Source: Kiloniellales bacterium
GTDB lineage: Bacteria > Pseudomonadota > Alphaproteobacteria > Kiloniellales > JAKSDN01
Assembly: GCA_028280455.1 (NCBI GenBank)
Contig: JANQLT010000074.1
Coordinates: 1 to 64,000 of the forward strand
Reading direction: 5' to 3'
DNA: 64,000 nucleotides
The notes under the pieces were generated by a model. The model worked only from the letters and a program-made list of their open reading frames with translations, was not told the origin of the DNA and ran no database searches. The number at the start of each line of letters is the position of its first letter. Position 1 is the stretch's first letter. The position numbers were made by a program, and so were the translations under genes. Shown piece after piece: positions 1,534-9,489 of this stretch.

Positions 1534-1543
1534 GCTAGACGCA

Positions 1544-1561
1544 GTAGAACGTTCGTTTTAC
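1544..1561. promoter_or_regulatory. candidate TetR operator
   Basis: GTAGAACG-TT-CGTTTTAC: near-perfect 18-bp palindrome (7/8 arm matches) 11 bp upstream of the TetR start codon. Confidence 0.55.
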
Positions 1562-1594
1562 CTCGTCAAGCGGAAATCGATCGCTGGAACGGCT

Positions 1595-3943
1595 CTAGCG
1601 CCTGAGGTCGTTGCAGACGCAGATCGGGAAGAAGTCGTCGATCTGATGCCGGCCGGCCGAGAGCCCGGGGCAGATGCTCTCGTCCCAGACCTGCAGATGC
1701 AAGATATAGCCGCAGCACTCGCCCGGCACCTCCTCGCCGTTCGGCCCGACATGGGCGCGGTCCAGGGTGAGGGCCGGCTCGGCGGGGTTGCAGACCCGGT
1801 CCAGGCGCCGGAAGTCGAGGACCGTCAGGATGCCCGGCGTCTTGGGCGGGATGACGCCGGCCGGCGGGTTGGCGGTCGGGCAGCGCACGCCCGGCTCGCC
1901 GACCCGGCCGCTGCCGACGAAGGGCCCGCCCCAGGGCGGCCCGCTCGGCCCCGGGATCGGCAGGTTGAACCAGGGGCCGCCGTCCTTCTTGATGCGCAGT
2001 CGGTAGCCGCCGAAGTTGTCGCTCGGGTTCGCCGTGTTGCCTTCCTCGATGTACTCGTCGTAGGCGATGCCGAGCAGCGAGGCCGGCCAGGGCTGCAGGC
2101 AGTCGCCGCCGTCGGCGGCGAACTTGCTGAGCACGATGCTGCCGCAGGGCGGCAGGCCGGAGACTTGCGTGATCTCGCCGTGGATATCCTTGTTGTCGAA
2201 CCAGGCCTGCTGCAGGTCGTGCTTGATGCCGCCGCCCGTGTCCTCGACCGAAAGCCGCAGGGTGTAGCGGCCGCTGTGGCAGTTGCTCGTCGGCAGCGGC
2301 GTCGAGGCCCAGAGCGCCGGCGCCGGGCAGGGCGGCTCGGAGGGCTCGATCGGGAAGGACTGCGGCGTCTCGGTCGACCAGCGGCTGGCCTGCAGCCAGT
2401 TCCAGACCGGCGAGCAGGCGGCCGGCGGCCAGTGCATCTCGCGCCAGCGCGAGGTCAGCGCGCCTTCGAAGATCTTGGTGCTGCTGGCGTCGAGCTGCAG
2501 CAGGGTGTTGTAGTCGACCTGCCAGAACTGGACGAAGCCCGGCAGGGTCGGGTCGACCACGAAGCCCGGGTGGTAGCTCAGGGTGAAGCGCTTGATGTCC
2601 TGGCCCGAGCAGCCGCCGATGTTGGCGCTGCCGACGACCCGCAGGCGGGTGCCGAAGGCGCGCACCCGGTTGCCGGCGTCGGTGAGCTGGGCGGTCGGAT
2701 CGAAGATGCCCGGCGGCTCGGCCGCTTCGATGCCCTCGAGGCCGCGGATCCAGACCAGGTTGCGCTGCAGCTCGAAGGTGATCGAGCAGCACTGCGGCGT
2801 GCCGCTCTGCGAGGAGTAGAGGCAGAGCCGGATCTCGACGGCGCCGCTGTCGACGTAGGGGAAGGTCTCGAGATAGCCGAGCGTACCGTTGAACAGGCCG
2901 CAGGCGCCCTGCGCCGCGCCCCCTGGGTACTTGATGCCGGCCGAGCTGTAGGGCCCGACGCCGCCTTCGCGCCACTCCAAGGTGTAGTGGCTGCAGAAGG
3001 CGCCGGCCGCCGTGCCGACGATCTCGACGCCGCGCAGGATGCCGGCGACCGGGATCTCCTGCTCCTCGGTGCAGCCGCTCGGCTTGGCGATCTCACAGAC
3101 TAGAGGGCCGAAGCAACGCCGCACGCAGAGCCAGTAGAGCAGCAGGCAGATAAGGACCTGCAGGAAGTTGCGCGAGCGCGCCAGGCAGCAGCCGAAGCGG
3201 ATGGCGCAGAGGCACCAGCAGCGGCAGAACCAGAAGAAGGGCTCCTGCGACAGCTTGGCGAAGGCCTCCTTGCCGAACAGCGCCTCGGCGACCTCCGGGT
3301 TGTGCAGCCGCTCGAAAACCTGGCCCAGCTCGGCCTCGCCTTCCTCGCAGTCGATGCGGCCCTCGAGCACGTCGTCCGGGACGCTCGTCGCGAAGTCCAT
3401 GACCGCGAGCTGCTCGGTCAGGTAGGGCTTGTAGGCGCCGGCGAAGGCCTGCACGAGCTTCTGGAAGTCGGCGCGCTGCTCCGCCGTCAGCGGCTCGGCC
3501 ACGGGCTGGCCGATCACCCGGCGGACGCAAAGCCAATAGCGGTAGAGGTAGTAGACGAAGGCCCGGAAGTTGCGCGGCCCCCGGCAGACCAGCCAGCCGA
3601 AGACCATGCAGCAGCGAATGTGCAGGAAGCACCAGCGCCAGCGCTCGATCGGCCCGAGGGTCTCTTGCGCCTCCTTGGGCAGGATCCGCAGGGCGACTTC
3701 TTCGGTGAAGAAGGCCTCGAAGATCCTGTGGGCCTGCTCGATCTCGTCGTCGCAGTCCGGCGGGTTCTTCTCGGCCTCCTTGCGCAAGCGCCCGGCGTCG
3801 CGGACCCGTTTGACGTCCTCCTCGACCACCGGCTTGTAGGCCTCGAGCAGCGCCTTGAGAACGACCTGGAAGTCCTCGCTGTCGAGGATCTCCTTGTGCT
3901 CTTCGAGCAGCGCTTTGGCTACCGGAACCTCGTTTTCGGGCAT
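1595..3943 (-). CDS. large Cys-rich protein of unknown function with duplicated N-terminal module and beta-rich C-terminal region
   Basis: 782-aa ORF with RBS-like GGGGAGGA before ATG; internal duplication (DFQ..AYKP....YWLCVRR..GxPV twice) argues the ORF is real. Confidence 0.85.
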   Translation of the reverse strand: MPENEVPVAKALLEEHKEILDSEDFQVVLKALLEAYKPVVEEDVKRVRDAGRLRKEAEKNPPDCDDEIEQAHRIFEAFFTEEVALRILPKEAQETLGPIERWRWCFLHIRCCMVFGWLVCRGPRNFRAFVYYLYRYWLCVRRVIGQPVAEPLTAEQRADFQKLVQAFAGAYKPYLTEQLAVMDFATSVPDDVLEGRIDCEEGEAELGQVFERLHNPEVAEALFGKEAFAKLSQEPFFWFCRCWCLCAIRFGCCLARSRNFLQVLICLLLYWLCVRRCFGPLVCEIAKPSGCTEEQEIPVAGILRGVEIVGTAAGAFCSHYTLEWREGGVGPYSSAGIKYPGGAAQGACGLFNGTLGYLETFPYVDSGAVEIRLCLYSSQSGTPQCCSITFELQRNLVWIRGLEGIEAAEPPGIFDPTAQLTDAGNRVRAFGTRLRVVGSANIGGCSGQDIKRFTLSYHPGFVVDPTLPGFVQFWQVDYNTLLQLDASSTKIFEGALTSRWREMHWPPAACSPVWNWLQASRWSTETPQSFPIEPSEPPCPAPALWASTPLPTSNCHSGRYTLRLSVEDTGGGIKHDLQQAWFDNKDIHGEITQVSGLPPCGSIVLSKFAADGGDCLQPWPASLLGIAYDEYIEEGNTANPSDNFGGYRLRIKKDGGPWFNLPIPGPSGPPWGGPFVGSGRVGEPGVRCPTANPPAGVIPPKTPGILTVLDFRRLDRVCNPAEPALTLDRAHVGPNGEEVPGECCGYILHLQVWDESICPGLSAGRHQIDDFFPICVCNDLRR
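3098..3469 (-). repeat. second copy of intragenic duplicated Cys-rich module (aa ~159-282)
   Basis: DFQKLVQAFAGAYKP...DCEEGEAELGQVFERL...FFWFCRCWCLCAIRFGCCLARSRNF...LLLYWLCVRRCFGPLV aligns with the first copy. Confidence 0.75.
3500..3874 (-). repeat. first copy of intragenic duplicated Cys-rich module (aa ~24-148)
   Basis: DFQVVLKALLEAYKP...DCDDEIEQAHRIFEAF...RWRWCFLHIRCCMVFGWLVCRGPRNF...YLYRYWLCVRRVIGQPV. Confidence 0.75.
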
Positions 3944-4752: not shown

Positions 4753-5103
4753 ATGAATAGGCCTCTGATGAAGCCCGTCGTTCGGTTTTTGAGCGACCTG
4801 CAGAAAACTGGCGGGCTCAAGGGAAGCGACATTGCCAACTTCACTGACGTCTCAAAGTCGACAGTCTCTCGTTGGTCCAGCGGTGAGAAATCTCCTCATC
4901 CCCAAAAGCAGCTCTTTCTATCCGATCTGCACTACGTGGTTATGCGCTTGAGCGAGTATTATGGCGCCGAGGAAATCCGAGCTTGGCTCTATGCAATGCA
5001 TCCTCAACTCGACGGAAGGCGTGCGATCGACCTCATCTACGAAGATCGGTCTGAAGAGATCCTGAACGTTCTCGATCGGCTCGATGCGGACGTCTATCTC
5101 TAG
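4753..5103 (+). CDS. Xre/ParS-type antitoxin (MbcA/ParS/Xre family)
   Basis: HTH (LKGSDIANFTDVSKSTVSRWSSGEKSPHP), C-terminal MbcA/Xre-like region (AEEIRAWLYAMHPQLDGRRAIDLI), immediately upstream of a RES-domain ORF. Confidence 0.85.
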   Translation: MNRPLMKPVVRFLSDLQKTGGLKGSDIANFTDVSKSTVSRWSSGEKSPHPQKQLFLSDLHYVVMRLSEYYGAEEIRAWLYAMHPQLDGRRAIDLIYEDRSEEILNVLDRLDADVYL

Positions 5104-5105
5104 CG

Positions 5106-5663
5106 ATGGGCCCTCCCATCAGGGATAGCGGTCTGCTCGATGCTCTCGAGCAAATGAAGCAAGAGCCGTTCTCTGGAAATGTTTGGAGGTCAGTTCGAGA
5201 AGGTAGGGATCCAACGGAGTGCTCCAGTGCAGGAGGGCGCTGGGATGATCGGTCATTCGATGTTCTGTACACCTCAGAGGCTCGCGAGGGTGCGCTAGAG
5301 GAACGGAGGTTCCATCTCTTTAGAGGTCAGCCATTCCCTCCATCCTTGGTCCGCTATGAAATGTTTGAGTTGTTTGCAGAACTCACCGCCGTTATCTCAC
5401 TCGACAGCCTCGAAACACTCCAAGCAGTTGGGATGAACACAAACAACTATGGTAGGGCTTCGCATGCGGATAGGGTGATCGAGTATCCTCGATCACAAGA
5501 GATTGCAGAAGCGTGCTTTTTTCTCGGTGCGGATGGCATTCTGGTACCAAGTGCGCGGCATGCGTCGCGCAATCTCGTGATCTTCTGCGAACAAGAGAAG
5601 CCTATGAAGATTGAGCTTATGCGTAGCCACGGGTTCATCGACTGGTCCGAAGGTCAGCCCTAA
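5106..5663 (+). CDS. RES-domain toxin
   Basis: VWRSVREG...SAGGRWDDRSFDVLYTSEAREGALEE R/G/RW/Y/E signature of RES family; 2 bp after the antitoxin stop. Confidence 0.85.
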   Translation: MGPPIRDSGLLDALEQMKQEPFSGNVWRSVREGRDPTECSSAGGRWDDRSFDVLYTSEAREGALEERRFHLFRGQPFPPSLVRYEMFELFAELTAVISLDSLETLQAVGMNTNNYGRASHADRVIEYPRSQEIAEACFFLGADGILVPSARHASRNLVIFCEQEKPMKIELMRSHGFIDWSEGQP

Positions 5664-5664
5664 C

Positions 5665-7200
5665 TTAAGCCCCATGCACCTGATGCTTGCGTCGCGCCAC
5701 GTAGTCCGCCAGCGCCTCGTCGATGGCCGGGTCGAGGGGTGGCTGCTCGTATTCGGTGAGGAGCTGCTTCCAGATCTGGTTGGCGCGCTGCTCGGCGGTG
5801 ACCTGGCCGCGCTCGACCCAGCTGTCGTAGTTGTCCCAGTTGGAGAGCAGGGGGGCGTAGAAGGCCTCTTCGTAGCGCGCCATGGTGTGGGCGGTGCCGA
5901 AGAAATGGCCGGCCGGGCCGACCTCGCGCAGGGCGTCGAGGGCCAGCGTGTCCTCGTCGACCTGTAGGGGCTGCTGCGCGGCGGCCATCATCTGCAGCAT
6001 CTCGGCGTCGATGATCAGCTTCTCGAAGGAGGCCGTCAGGCCGCCGCCGAGCCAGCCGGCGGCGTGCATGATCAGGTTCGCCTGGCCGGTCATGGCACCC
6101 CAGAGCGCCATCTGGCTTTCGTAGGCCGCCTGGGCGTCGTTGGTATTGGCGGCCGTGACGTTGCTCGAGCGGAAGGGTAGGCCGAGGCGCCGGGCGAGCT
6201 GGCCGGAGACCTGGGCGGCCTGGACGTACTCCGGCGTGCCGAAGGCGGGCGCGCCGGTCTTCATGTCGACGTTGGAGGTGAAGCCGCCGTAGAGCACCGG
6301 CGCGCCGGGCCGGACGATCTGGGCCAGGGCGATGCCGGCCATGGCCTCGGCGTGCTGCTGGGCCAGCGCGCCGGCCAGGGTGATCGGCGACATGGCGCCG
6401 GACAGGGTGAAGGGCGTGACGATCACCGCCTGGCCGTGCGCCGCCATGGCCATCAGGCCCTCGGCCATGGGGATGTCGAGCTGCAGCGGCGAGTTGGTGT
6501 TGATGACGCAGGTGAAGACCGGCGTCTCGGCCAGCGCCTCGAGGTCCTTGCCGAGCATGATGGCGGCCATCTCCAGCGCGTCCACGGCCTGCTGTCGGCC
6601 GAGGCCCCAGGGCTGCCAGTTCTTGTCCAGCAGCCGGATCTGCGCCAGGTAGAGGTCGAGATGCCGGGTCTCCGCCGGCCGGTCGAGCGCCTCGAAGCCG
6701 CCGCCGCCTTCCTGGTGCAGCACCTCCAGGCTCTGCACCAGGCGCAGGAAGTCGCACATCTCCTCGAAGCTGCCGTCGCGCCGGCCCTTGTCGAGGTCCA
6801 TGCAGTAGGCCGGGCCGCCGACCGAGACGAAGACCGCCCGGTCCGCGGCGATCTCCAGGTTGCGCGCCGGGTTGCGGGCATGAAGCGTGAAGCGCGGCGG
6901 CGCCTTGGCGACCAGTGCCTCGACCAGCGCGCGCTCGAAGCGCACGCCTTCGCTGCCCTCGTCGACATCGAAGCCGGCGCCGGCGAAGGCGGCGCGCGCC
7001 TCGGCCGACAGCACCTTGAGGCCGATCTCCTCGAGGATGGTCAGCGCGGCCCGGTGGATCGACTCGATCTCGTCGGCGCTGACGATCTCGAGCGGCGCGT
7101 TGCGATAGGTGACCGTCTGCCAGGGCCGCTGGCTGAGGGCGCCGACGCTCCGCTCGCTGCGGGCGGCGCGGCGGCGGCGGGCGCTGCTGCGTTCGGTCAT
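5665..7200 (-). CDS. trimethylamine methyltransferase family protein (non-pyrrolysine MttB homologue, COG5598-like)
   Basis: 511 aa, full-length without internal amber codon; GGPAYCMDLDKGRRDGSFEEMCDFLRLVQSL, NTNSPLQLDIPMAEGLMAMA, PVLYGGFTSNVDMKTGAPAFGTPEY typical of MttB superfamily. Confidence 0.9.
   Translation of the reverse strand: MTERSSARRRRAARSERSVGALSQRPWQTVTYRNAPLEIVSADEIESIHRAALTILEEIGLKVLSAEARAAFAGAGFDVDEGSEGVRFERALVEALVAKAPPRFTLHARNPARNLEIAADRAVFVSVGGPAYCMDLDKGRRDGSFEEMCDFLRLVQSLEVLHQEGGGGFEALDRPAETRHLDLYLAQIRLLDKNWQPWGLGRQQAVDALEMAAIMLGKDLEALAETPVFTCVINTNSPLQLDIPMAEGLMAMAAHGQAVIVTPFTLSGAMSPITLAGALAQQHAEAMAGIALAQIVRPGAPVLYGGFTSNVDMKTGAPAFGTPEYVQAAQVSGQLARRLGLPFRSSNVTAANTNDAQAAYESQMALWGAMTGQANLIMHAAGWLGGGLTASFEKLIIDAEMLQMMAAAQQPLQVDEDTLALDALREVGPAGHFFGTAHTMARYEEAFYAPLLSNWDNYDSWVERGQVTAEQRANQIWKQLLTEYEQPPLDPAIDEALADYVARRKHQVHGA
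5675..5743 (-). repeat. direct repeat within 3' end of mttB-family gene (proximal island boundary)
   Basis: 62/69 identity to 4256-4324 in the same orientation. Confidence 0.85.
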
Positions 7201-9275
7201 GGCCGCACTCCTTCAGGGTCCAAGACTGTCGTGCGCTCGCGGCGCGGCATCTTCACGCTGTCCGGCTCCTCGAGCTCGCGGGCGTAGCGGTGGCCGGCGT
7301 GGACGGCGTCGGCGACGGAGGAGGGCACCAGGCAATCGCCGATCCGCGTCACCGACGCGATGCCGGCCTCCTTCAGCGCCTCCGGCTCGGCCATCAGCGC
7401 GTCGTAGAGCGCGCGCTCCGGCAGGCGGCCGGTCACCAGGAGCAGCGTGCCGCAGGCCAGCGTCTTCTGACGGCCGGTGTAGATGCAGTCGACGGTGATC
7501 GATTGGCCGCCGACGGCCGAAAGCCGGTGGGTCAGGACGGTCTCCAGGCCCAGCTCCATCAAGCGCGCCTGGATGAAGGCCTGCTCGTCTGTCATCTGGG
7601 TCCAGGTCGAGAGCATGGTGCCCGGCGTCACCAGGGTGACTTCGCGGCCCTCCAGCAGGAAGCGCTCGGCCAGCGCGCCGGCCATGTAGTAGTGGTCGTC
7701 GTCGTAGACCACGAGAGGGCCTTCGGGCGCCTGGCCGGCGAAGATGTCGTCGGGCGTCAGCACGCGGCCGGCGCCGTTCAGGCCCGGCGGCGTCTCGACA
7801 TGGCCGCCGACGCCGTCGCGCCGCCAGCGGCTGCCGCTGGCGATCACCACGTGCTCGGCGCCCAGCTCGCGGACGTCCTCGGCGCCGAGCGCGCTCTCCC
7901 GGTAGACCTCGACGTTGGCCATGGGCTCCAGGCGCTGTGCCCGATAGTCGCGCACGCGGATCCAGGTGCCGAGGCCCGGCAAGGTCGAATCGCGCAGCAG
8001 CCGGCCGCCGAGCGCTCGGCCCGCCTCGGCGAGCGTGACCCGGTAGCCGCGGCGGGCCAGGGCGAGCGTCGCCTCCAGGCCGGCCGGGCCGGCGCCGACC
8101 ACCAGCACCCGGGCCTCGGACCTGGCCGGCTGGATGCGCTCCGGGTGCCAGCCGCGGCGCCATTCCTCGCCCATGGTCGGGTTCTGGGTGCAGCGAAGGG
8201 GCGTGCCCTCGTTGTTGGCCGAGCGGCAGATGTTGCAGCCGATGCACTCGCGGATCTCGTCCTCGCGGCCCTCGTCGATCTTGCGCGGCAGGAAGGGGTC
8301 GGCGATCGAGGGCCGGGCGGCGCCGATGAAGTCCTGAATGCCGCGCTTGATCTGGCCGACCATGGTGTCGGGCGAGGTGAAGCGGCCGACGCTGACCACC
8401 GGCTTGCTGGTCAGGCTCTTGACGAAGGCGATGCTGTCTTCCTCGTAGCCCTCGGCGGAGAAGCGGGCGCTGCGGGAATCGTTGCCGTTGCCGCCGGCCA
8501 GGTTGACGTCCCAGAGGTCCGGCAGCTCGGCCAGCATCGCCACCACCTCGCGGCCTTCGCCCTCGCTGGTGATGCCCTTGGGGCCCTTCAGCTCGTCGAC
8601 CGCCAGGCGCAGGGCCACGGCGCAGCGATCGCCGATCGCCTCCTTGGTGTCTTCCAGCAGCTCGCGCAGCAGCCGCGCCCGGTTCTCGAGCGGACCGCCG
8701 TACTCGTCGCTGCGCTGGTTGGTCAGCGGCGAGAGGAACTGGAAGGGCAGGTAGTCGTGGCCGGCGTAGACGTAGACGATGTCGAAGCCGGCGCGCCGGG
8801 CGCGCAGGGCCGCGGCCCGGTGCCAGTCGCGAAAGGCGGCGATGTCGGCCTTGTCCATGGCCCGCGCCTGGCCCGGCTGCCAGAACACGGCCGAGTGCTC
8901 GGAGGGCGAGAGCATGGGCTCGCGGGTCAGGCGGTTGGGCGAATGGGAGCCGCCGTGCCAGAGCTCGATGCCGGCCAGCGCGCCGTGGGCCTGGATCGCC
9001 TCGACCGTCGGCGCCAGGGCCTTCACGTCCTCCTCGTCCCAGAGCGAGAGGTAGGCGTAGGGCGAATCGTCCGAGCTCGGGTGGATCGAGCAGTATTCCG
9101 TGCAGACGACGCCCCAGCCGCCCTCGGCCTTGAGGCCGCGCAGCGCGGCGCCGGCTTTCGGCCGGGCCAGGCCCATGCCGGTCGCATGGGGCGTCTGGTA
9201 GAAGCGGTTCGGCGCCGTCACCGGGCCGATCCGCACGGGCTCGAACAGGATGTCGTAGCGCGGGTTCCGGGGCAT
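7197..9275 (-). CDS. NADH:flavin oxidoreductase / TMADH-histamine dehydrogenase-like flavoprotein
   Basis: YDILFEPVRIGPVTAPNRFYQTPHATGMG; CIGCNIC..CTQN 4Fe-4S motif; VLVVGAGPAGLEA dinucleotide-binding domain; overlaps mttB by 4 bp. ORF extends to 9437 but ATG at 9275 fits the family N-terminus. Confidence 0.9.
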   Translation of the reverse strand: MPRNPRYDILFEPVRIGPVTAPNRFYQTPHATGMGLARPKAGAALRGLKAEGGWGVVCTEYCSIHPSSDDSPYAYLSLWDEEDVKALAPTVEAIQAHGALAGIELWHGGSHSPNRLTREPMLSPSEHSAVFWQPGQARAMDKADIAAFRDWHRAAALRARRAGFDIVYVYAGHDYLPFQFLSPLTNQRSDEYGGPLENRARLLRELLEDTKEAIGDRCAVALRLAVDELKGPKGITSEGEGREVVAMLAELPDLWDVNLAGGNGNDSRSARFSAEGYEEDSIAFVKSLTSKPVVSVGRFTSPDTMVGQIKRGIQDFIGAARPSIADPFLPRKIDEGREDEIRECIGCNICRSANNEGTPLRCTQNPTMGEEWRRGWHPERIQPARSEARVLVVGAGPAGLEATLALARRGYRVTLAEAGRALGGRLLRDSTLPGLGTWIRVRDYRAQRLEPMANVEVYRESALGAEDVRELGAEHVVIASGSRWRRDGVGGHVETPPGLNGAGRVLTPDDIFAGQAPEGPLVVYDDDHYYMAGALAERFLLEGREVTLVTPGTMLSTWTQMTDEQAFIQARLMELGLETVLTHRLSAVGGQSITVDCIYTGRQKTLACGTLLLVTGRLPERALYDALMAEPEALKEAGIASVTRIGDCLVPSSVADAVHAGHRYARELEEPDSVKMPRRERTTVLDPEGVRP

Positions 9276-9489
9276 CGGACGCGGCTCACGGCTGCTTGTT
9301 GAATGATCGTATAGCAAGATTTGTAGCATGACGCCGGTTCCGGAGGGAACAGGAATCTTATGCAATCCGGGGCGTTGCGCCCACTGGCGGCATCGTGAAC
9401 GCTGGGCGATTGCGCCGCGGTGCCCGAGGGACCACATGCCCTCCAGCGCGTCCGCCCAAGCCTGTCATGTCACGAGGGAGTCCCGAGCC

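Follow-up and report, generated by a model that had tools for sequence, protein, structure and literature searches.

The stretch of DNA analysed here (the window, 64,000 nucleotides from a Kiloniellales bacterium) carries near its start a large Cys/Trp-rich gene at positions 1595-3943 of the minus strand, an intact reading frame of 782 aa with an ATG start and no internal stops, delimited from its translation and from homologous loci and present as a single copy in its own genome. Comparison with the closest relative, locus L001, indicates purifying selection on the gene (pS 0.40, pN 0.18). Downstream, 61 bp (1534-1594, minus strand) separate it from a TetR regulator gene, which is followed by an alpha/beta hydrolase gene; this short interval is the site where two partner genes, encoding a DUF1360 protein and a small MxCCGQ protein, would be expected, and both are absent from it. 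Upstream, in the opposite orientation, lies a stretch of low GC content (0.58 vs about 0.69), in which a RES-domain toxin gene (PF08808, 4.4e-19) follows an Xre/MbcA/ParS-like antitoxin gene (4753-5663, plus strand), the antitoxin match of 5.8e-5 falling just under the cut-off. The module in L001 likewise adjoins a toxin-antitoxin-like pair, a ribbon-helix-helix/PIN-like one recognized by eye directly downstream of it (L001 11932-12599, minus strand). Beyond the RES-Xre pair, at 5665-9437 of the minus strand, an MttB-like trimethylamine methyltransferase family gene (1e-194) overlaps a gene for an FMN/pyridine-nucleotide oxidoreductase (Oxidored_FMN/Pyr_redox_2) that resembles trimethylamine or dimethylamine dehydrogenases, and the two possibly form a methylated-amine pair.

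The N-terminal half of the 782-aa protein is built from two diverged copies of one helical module. Module 1 (aa 24-148; 3500-3874, minus strand) contains a WRWCFLHIRCC helix and ends in YWLCVRR, and module 2 (aa 159-282; 3098-3469, minus strand) is its duplicate, with 31% identity over 127 aa between aa 20-150 and aa 155-290 in BLASTP (E=6e-18). Profile-profile alignment with hhalign gave 99.0% probability (E=3.9e-18, 124 columns), while five column-shuffled profiles used as control reached at most 3.7%. The duplication, proposed in the original prediction from the letters alone, is thereby confirmed, and it is also present in homologues. The same prediction had counted about 18 cysteines in the first 300 residues; there are exactly 18, among 36 in the whole protein, and when their conservation was checked in homologues, 15 proved invariant across 17 aligned sequences. 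The less strict positions are C244, kept in 16 of the 17, and C120 and C252, each kept in 15, so that Cys columns of the N-terminal alignment are invariant in 15 of 18 cases (83%), vs 38 of about 259 non-Cys columns (~15%). Read from the alignment, four cysteines occupy equivalent places in the two modules and are all invariant (C64/C199, C105/C240, C111/C246 and C139/C273). The most conserved stretch, FFWFCRCWCLCAIRFGCCLAR (aa 236-256; 3176-3238, minus strand), belongs to module 2 and is near-invariant in 17 homologues.

A full-length AlphaFold2 model built from 17 sequences (pLDDT 75) places helices up to about aa 278 and strands at aa 282-777, and the N-terminal 277 aa modelled alone are helical as well (pLDDT 83.6, pTM 0.82). 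Fold searches with this half returned only noise, with best E values of 0.9 in PDB and 1.1 in BFVD. A structural match covering both modules was thus sought in these two collections and none was found, in keeping with the earlier statement that no family could be recognized, which also holds for Pfam, NCBIfam, PHROGs, PADLOC and PDB sequences; the best match in those libraries, Metal_resist, has an E value of 0.2, below the cut-off. The N-terminal 277 aa, as modelled from a shallow alignment and compared with PDB and BFVD, are therefore probably a new fold. The W/C-rich helices are hydrophobic, with Wimley-White octanol sums of 10-11 at aa 102-120 and 260-278. A simple transmembrane anchor was considered for them and rejected, since relatives have charged residues there, with Arg/Glu in the last helix of module 2 (YRRCLRECFRPL).

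The C-terminal half (aa 290-780; 1604-3076, minus strand) consists of predicted tandem Ig-like beta sandwiches. Foldseek matched the model to tandem Ig, cadherin, FNIII, RTX-adhesin and S-layer sandwiches with E values from 2e-7 to 1e-4, the TM-scores being low because relative domain placement differs. These matches, together with the predicted strands, support the beta-rich half with sandwich modules that had been suggested from the sequence. Homology among the Ig-like domains within the protein is undetectable by profile, and one such domain is also part of a subtilase that has FG-GAP repeats. Near the C-terminus, the motif GECCGYILHLQVWDES (aa 741-756; 1676-1723, minus strand) has weakly similar counterparts in further large proteins encoded ahead of DUF1360 genes; its form common by eye to the 782-aa family and the large protein of L051, GECCxYxLHLxAWDxT, reaches a profile probability of 10%. 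The predicted fold of this half is that of tandem Ig-like adhesins, RTX-adhesin repeats and S-layer proteins, but identity to these is about 10%, the all-helical N-terminal half is an addition, and no signal peptide, S-layer anchor or sortase anchor is visible by eye in the 782-aa translation.

Described at first as an orphan, the protein is one in its own genome only, where it is single-copy and partnerless, while relatives occur in many phyla. Twenty homologous loci, approximately 36-72% identical, were collected, 17 by contig search and three, homologous over the full length, by whole-genome searches (G419, G532 and G536); the large protein is homologous to those of other loci from end to end. 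Going by record titles, they cover at least eight phyla, namely Pseudomonadota, Gemmatimonadota, Myxococcota, Acidobacteriota, Methylomirabilota, Verrucomicrobiota, Deferribacterota and Rhodothermota, although almost all the named records are metagenome-assembled genomes, in which binning errors may occur. Throughout, the family is rare and patchily distributed: among 146 genomes in the search of relatives only the source genome itself has it, 2 of 347 Acidobacteriota gave a full-length match, and it was found in 4 of 95 Methylomirabilota and 1 of 299 Burkholderiales. Neither plasmid records nor 50,697 phage records contain a homologue of the large protein. The tree scatters the Methylomirabilota over three positions and the Burkholderiales over two, for the most part strongly supported, a pattern that indicates horizontal transfer.

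At the other loci, the large gene has constant company. In 17 of the 20, a gene for an integral membrane protein of the DUF1360 family (PF07098; match 4.4e-8) lies directly downstream on the same strand, separated by about -4 to +25 bp, and in 18 of the 20 a gene for a small protein of ~83-120 aa follows, which starts with M(G/S/A)CCGQ and has a conserved beta-like segment at its end. This third reading frame usually starts inside the DUF1360 frame, an overlap that makes it easily missed by annotation; the table of plasmid genes consulted has no entry for the MxCCG gene of Burkholderia plasmid p2 (L048 8308-8559, plus strand). Both partners have conserved Cys pairs, which in DUF1360 include a DCxxC motif. 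L009 retains the small MxCCGQ gene only, and L003 and L004 have neither partner. In the source genome, which is 97% complete, the DUF1360 partner is absent from the site and was not found elsewhere; the MxCCGQ gene was not found either, with a profile that does find targets in other genomes. Since the source genome, which holds the large protein as the only one of the three, as well as L003 and L004, lack both partners, these are not strictly needed. No other neighbours are generally shared among the loci. DUF1360, to which the 782-aa protein itself is unrelated, includes the Bacillus sporulation protein YjcA, and no function for DUF1360, DUF6603 and related families was found in the part of the literature that was covered. 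The large protein, DUF1360 and MxCCGQ thus make up, on well-supported grounds, a horizontally spread three-gene module, of which we found no description in that same part of the literature.

The partner pair is not confined to relatives of the 782-aa protein. Searches started from the partners located it behind different large proteins in plasmid p2 of Burkholderia sp. FERM BP-3421 and in G719, G1242, G188, G185 and G333; the large proteins that it follows in L048, L051, L059, L060, L061 and L062 are unrelated or half-related ones. The large proteins of L048, L051, L059 and L061 are distantly related to each other, while no signal of common origin with other large proteins was obtained for that of L060. 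The carboxypeptidase-regulatory-like large proteins of plasmid p2, G719, G1242 and G185 share the operon position, both partners and W/C-rich patches with the 782-aa protein, but their similarity to it is not significant (hhalign at most 2%). Per 60 aa, core proteins contain 12-15 W or C residues, vs a mean of 4.1 in 163 other genes; two variants are only weakly enriched, with 7 (L060) and 5 (L062).

Further evidence comes from L046, a second large protein of G536 with a GEVED domain (PF20009) and no partners beside it. Its C-terminal half is homologous to that of the 782-aa protein (hhalign 99.8%, E=4e-29, 432 columns), which has no GEVED domain and carries the Cys/Trp helical pair as its N-terminal half instead. 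The GEVED N-terminal half of L046, in turn, matches the N-terminal half of the L062 protein (BLASTP 6e-58), which itself precedes DUF1360. With its two halves related to L062 and to the 782-aa family, respectively, L046 indicates that halves have been exchanged while the partner pair stayed constant.

The surroundings of individual modules vary. In L051, a 445-aa protein (ERCPGPMSLGDLVYSTTLLPGEKVKLF) with a weak TIG_2 match is encoded right behind the DUF1360-MxCCG module (4959-6296, minus strand), and it has no plasmid relatives. A run of very large uncharacterized genes, one with DUF6603 (7e-85), directly follows the module in L014 (13399-22222, plus strand), and a protein joining trypsin-like and phospholipase-D-like domains is encoded beside it in L060 (4336-6777, minus strand). 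In L062 (9768-15373, plus strand), one DUF1360 gene is followed by two small genes in a row, MxCCG-type or related, and these by genes for a sigma-factor-like protein, a possible anti-sigma factor and a TPR-CHAT protein.

We tentatively read the large protein as an envelope-associated recognition or adhesion scaffold. Attachment to the envelope is suggested by the constant membrane-protein partner, the hydrophobic W/C helices, the W/C density and the adhesin-like arms. The original prediction had offered a metal-, redox- or membrane-associated scaffold, and it is the membrane part that has gained support, from the conserved DUF1360 neighbour and the same helices. More is learnt from the two partner genes and the shuffled domains, neither of which that prediction could have seen. 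In the proposed arrangement, the large protein would be held at the cell envelope, its two W/C-rich helical modules joining DUF1360 in docking at or within the membrane and stiffened by module cysteines that may form Zn sites or disulfides. Pointing outward, the Ig-like C-terminal arms would bind a surface ligand (a neighbouring cell, a polymer or a phage), and the small CC protein could assist assembly or link the membrane pair to these arms. Binding specificity would then change with the large protein while the membrane pair stays constant, and the intact but partnerless copy of the source genome might work alone, borrow other partners or be in slow decay. With similar reserve, we envisage a modular trans-phylum envelope system in which the constant DUF1360 and MxCCGQ pair serves to display large recognition proteins that can be swapped, a new duplicated Cys/Trp helical fold being borne by one class of them. 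Several points speak against such a scaffold. In relatives, the charged Arg/Glu in the last helix of module 2 would not suit a simple transmembrane helix; no signal peptide or export route, as a surface location would call for, is visible by eye; W/C richness is weak in L060 and L062; and the source genome, L003 and L004 do without the partners.

That no signal peptide is visible in the sequence would fit a cytosolic metal or redox scaffold, which we regard as a somewhat unlikely account of the protein. Each module would then bind Zn or Fe-S through a four-Cys site (C64/105/111/139 and C199/240/246/273), the DCxxC of DUF1360 and the MxCCG protein would hand on the metal or electrons, with the Ig-like half as a rigid holder. 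The four invariant cysteines placed equivalently in both modules, the invariance of 15 of the 18 N-terminal cysteines and the conserved Cys pairs of the partners all agree with this. Set against them, no metal-binding or redox family is matched, tandem Ig-like arms are typically carried by exported proteins, and the neighbours share no metal or redox genes.

A role in defence or inter-bacterial conflict, with the large protein as recognition or effector part, DUF1360 as membrane effector or release protein and a tie to nearby CHAT or trypsin-type proteases, seems unlikely to us. It draws on CHAT proteins near L043, L059 and L062, on trypsin-like proteins in the vicinity of L013 and, joined to a PLD domain, of L060, on sigma factors adjoining L002 and L011, and on the patchy, incongruent distribution and exchangeable large proteins. 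These CHAT, protease and sigma neighbours occur in a minority of loci, however, and only the two partners are generally shared; PADLOC gave no match, no toxin fold was recognized, and nothing of the kind stands beside the 782-aa gene except the separate RES-Xre pair. CHAT and protease genes were considered as parts of the module itself and rejected, the loci being too few. A leftover structural module of a phage or gene-transfer agent, made of a tail or baseplate protein and a small head-tail-like partner, is very improbable: the weak phage family match of DUF1360 (PHROG 781, 2e-4) and the C-terminal beta segment of the MxCCGQ protein, which is reminiscent of small phage structural proteins, are set against the empty search of the phage records, the lack of matches among BFVD folds and of any PHROG for the large and MxCCGQ proteins, and, by eye, the lack of phage genes around the inspected loci.

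Returning to the envelope scaffold, the novelty would lie in the three-gene module and the probably new N-terminal fold, not in the Ig-like half. None of the family libraries searched names this protein, although it recurs across distant phyla with a helical fold that has no match, cysteines that hardly vary and two faithful partner genes. DUF1360, a family without a function, gains a constant genomic partner and with it a testable role, and the whole points to display on a mix-and-match principle among environmental bacteria, overlooked by annotation pipelines because of the overlapping small gene.
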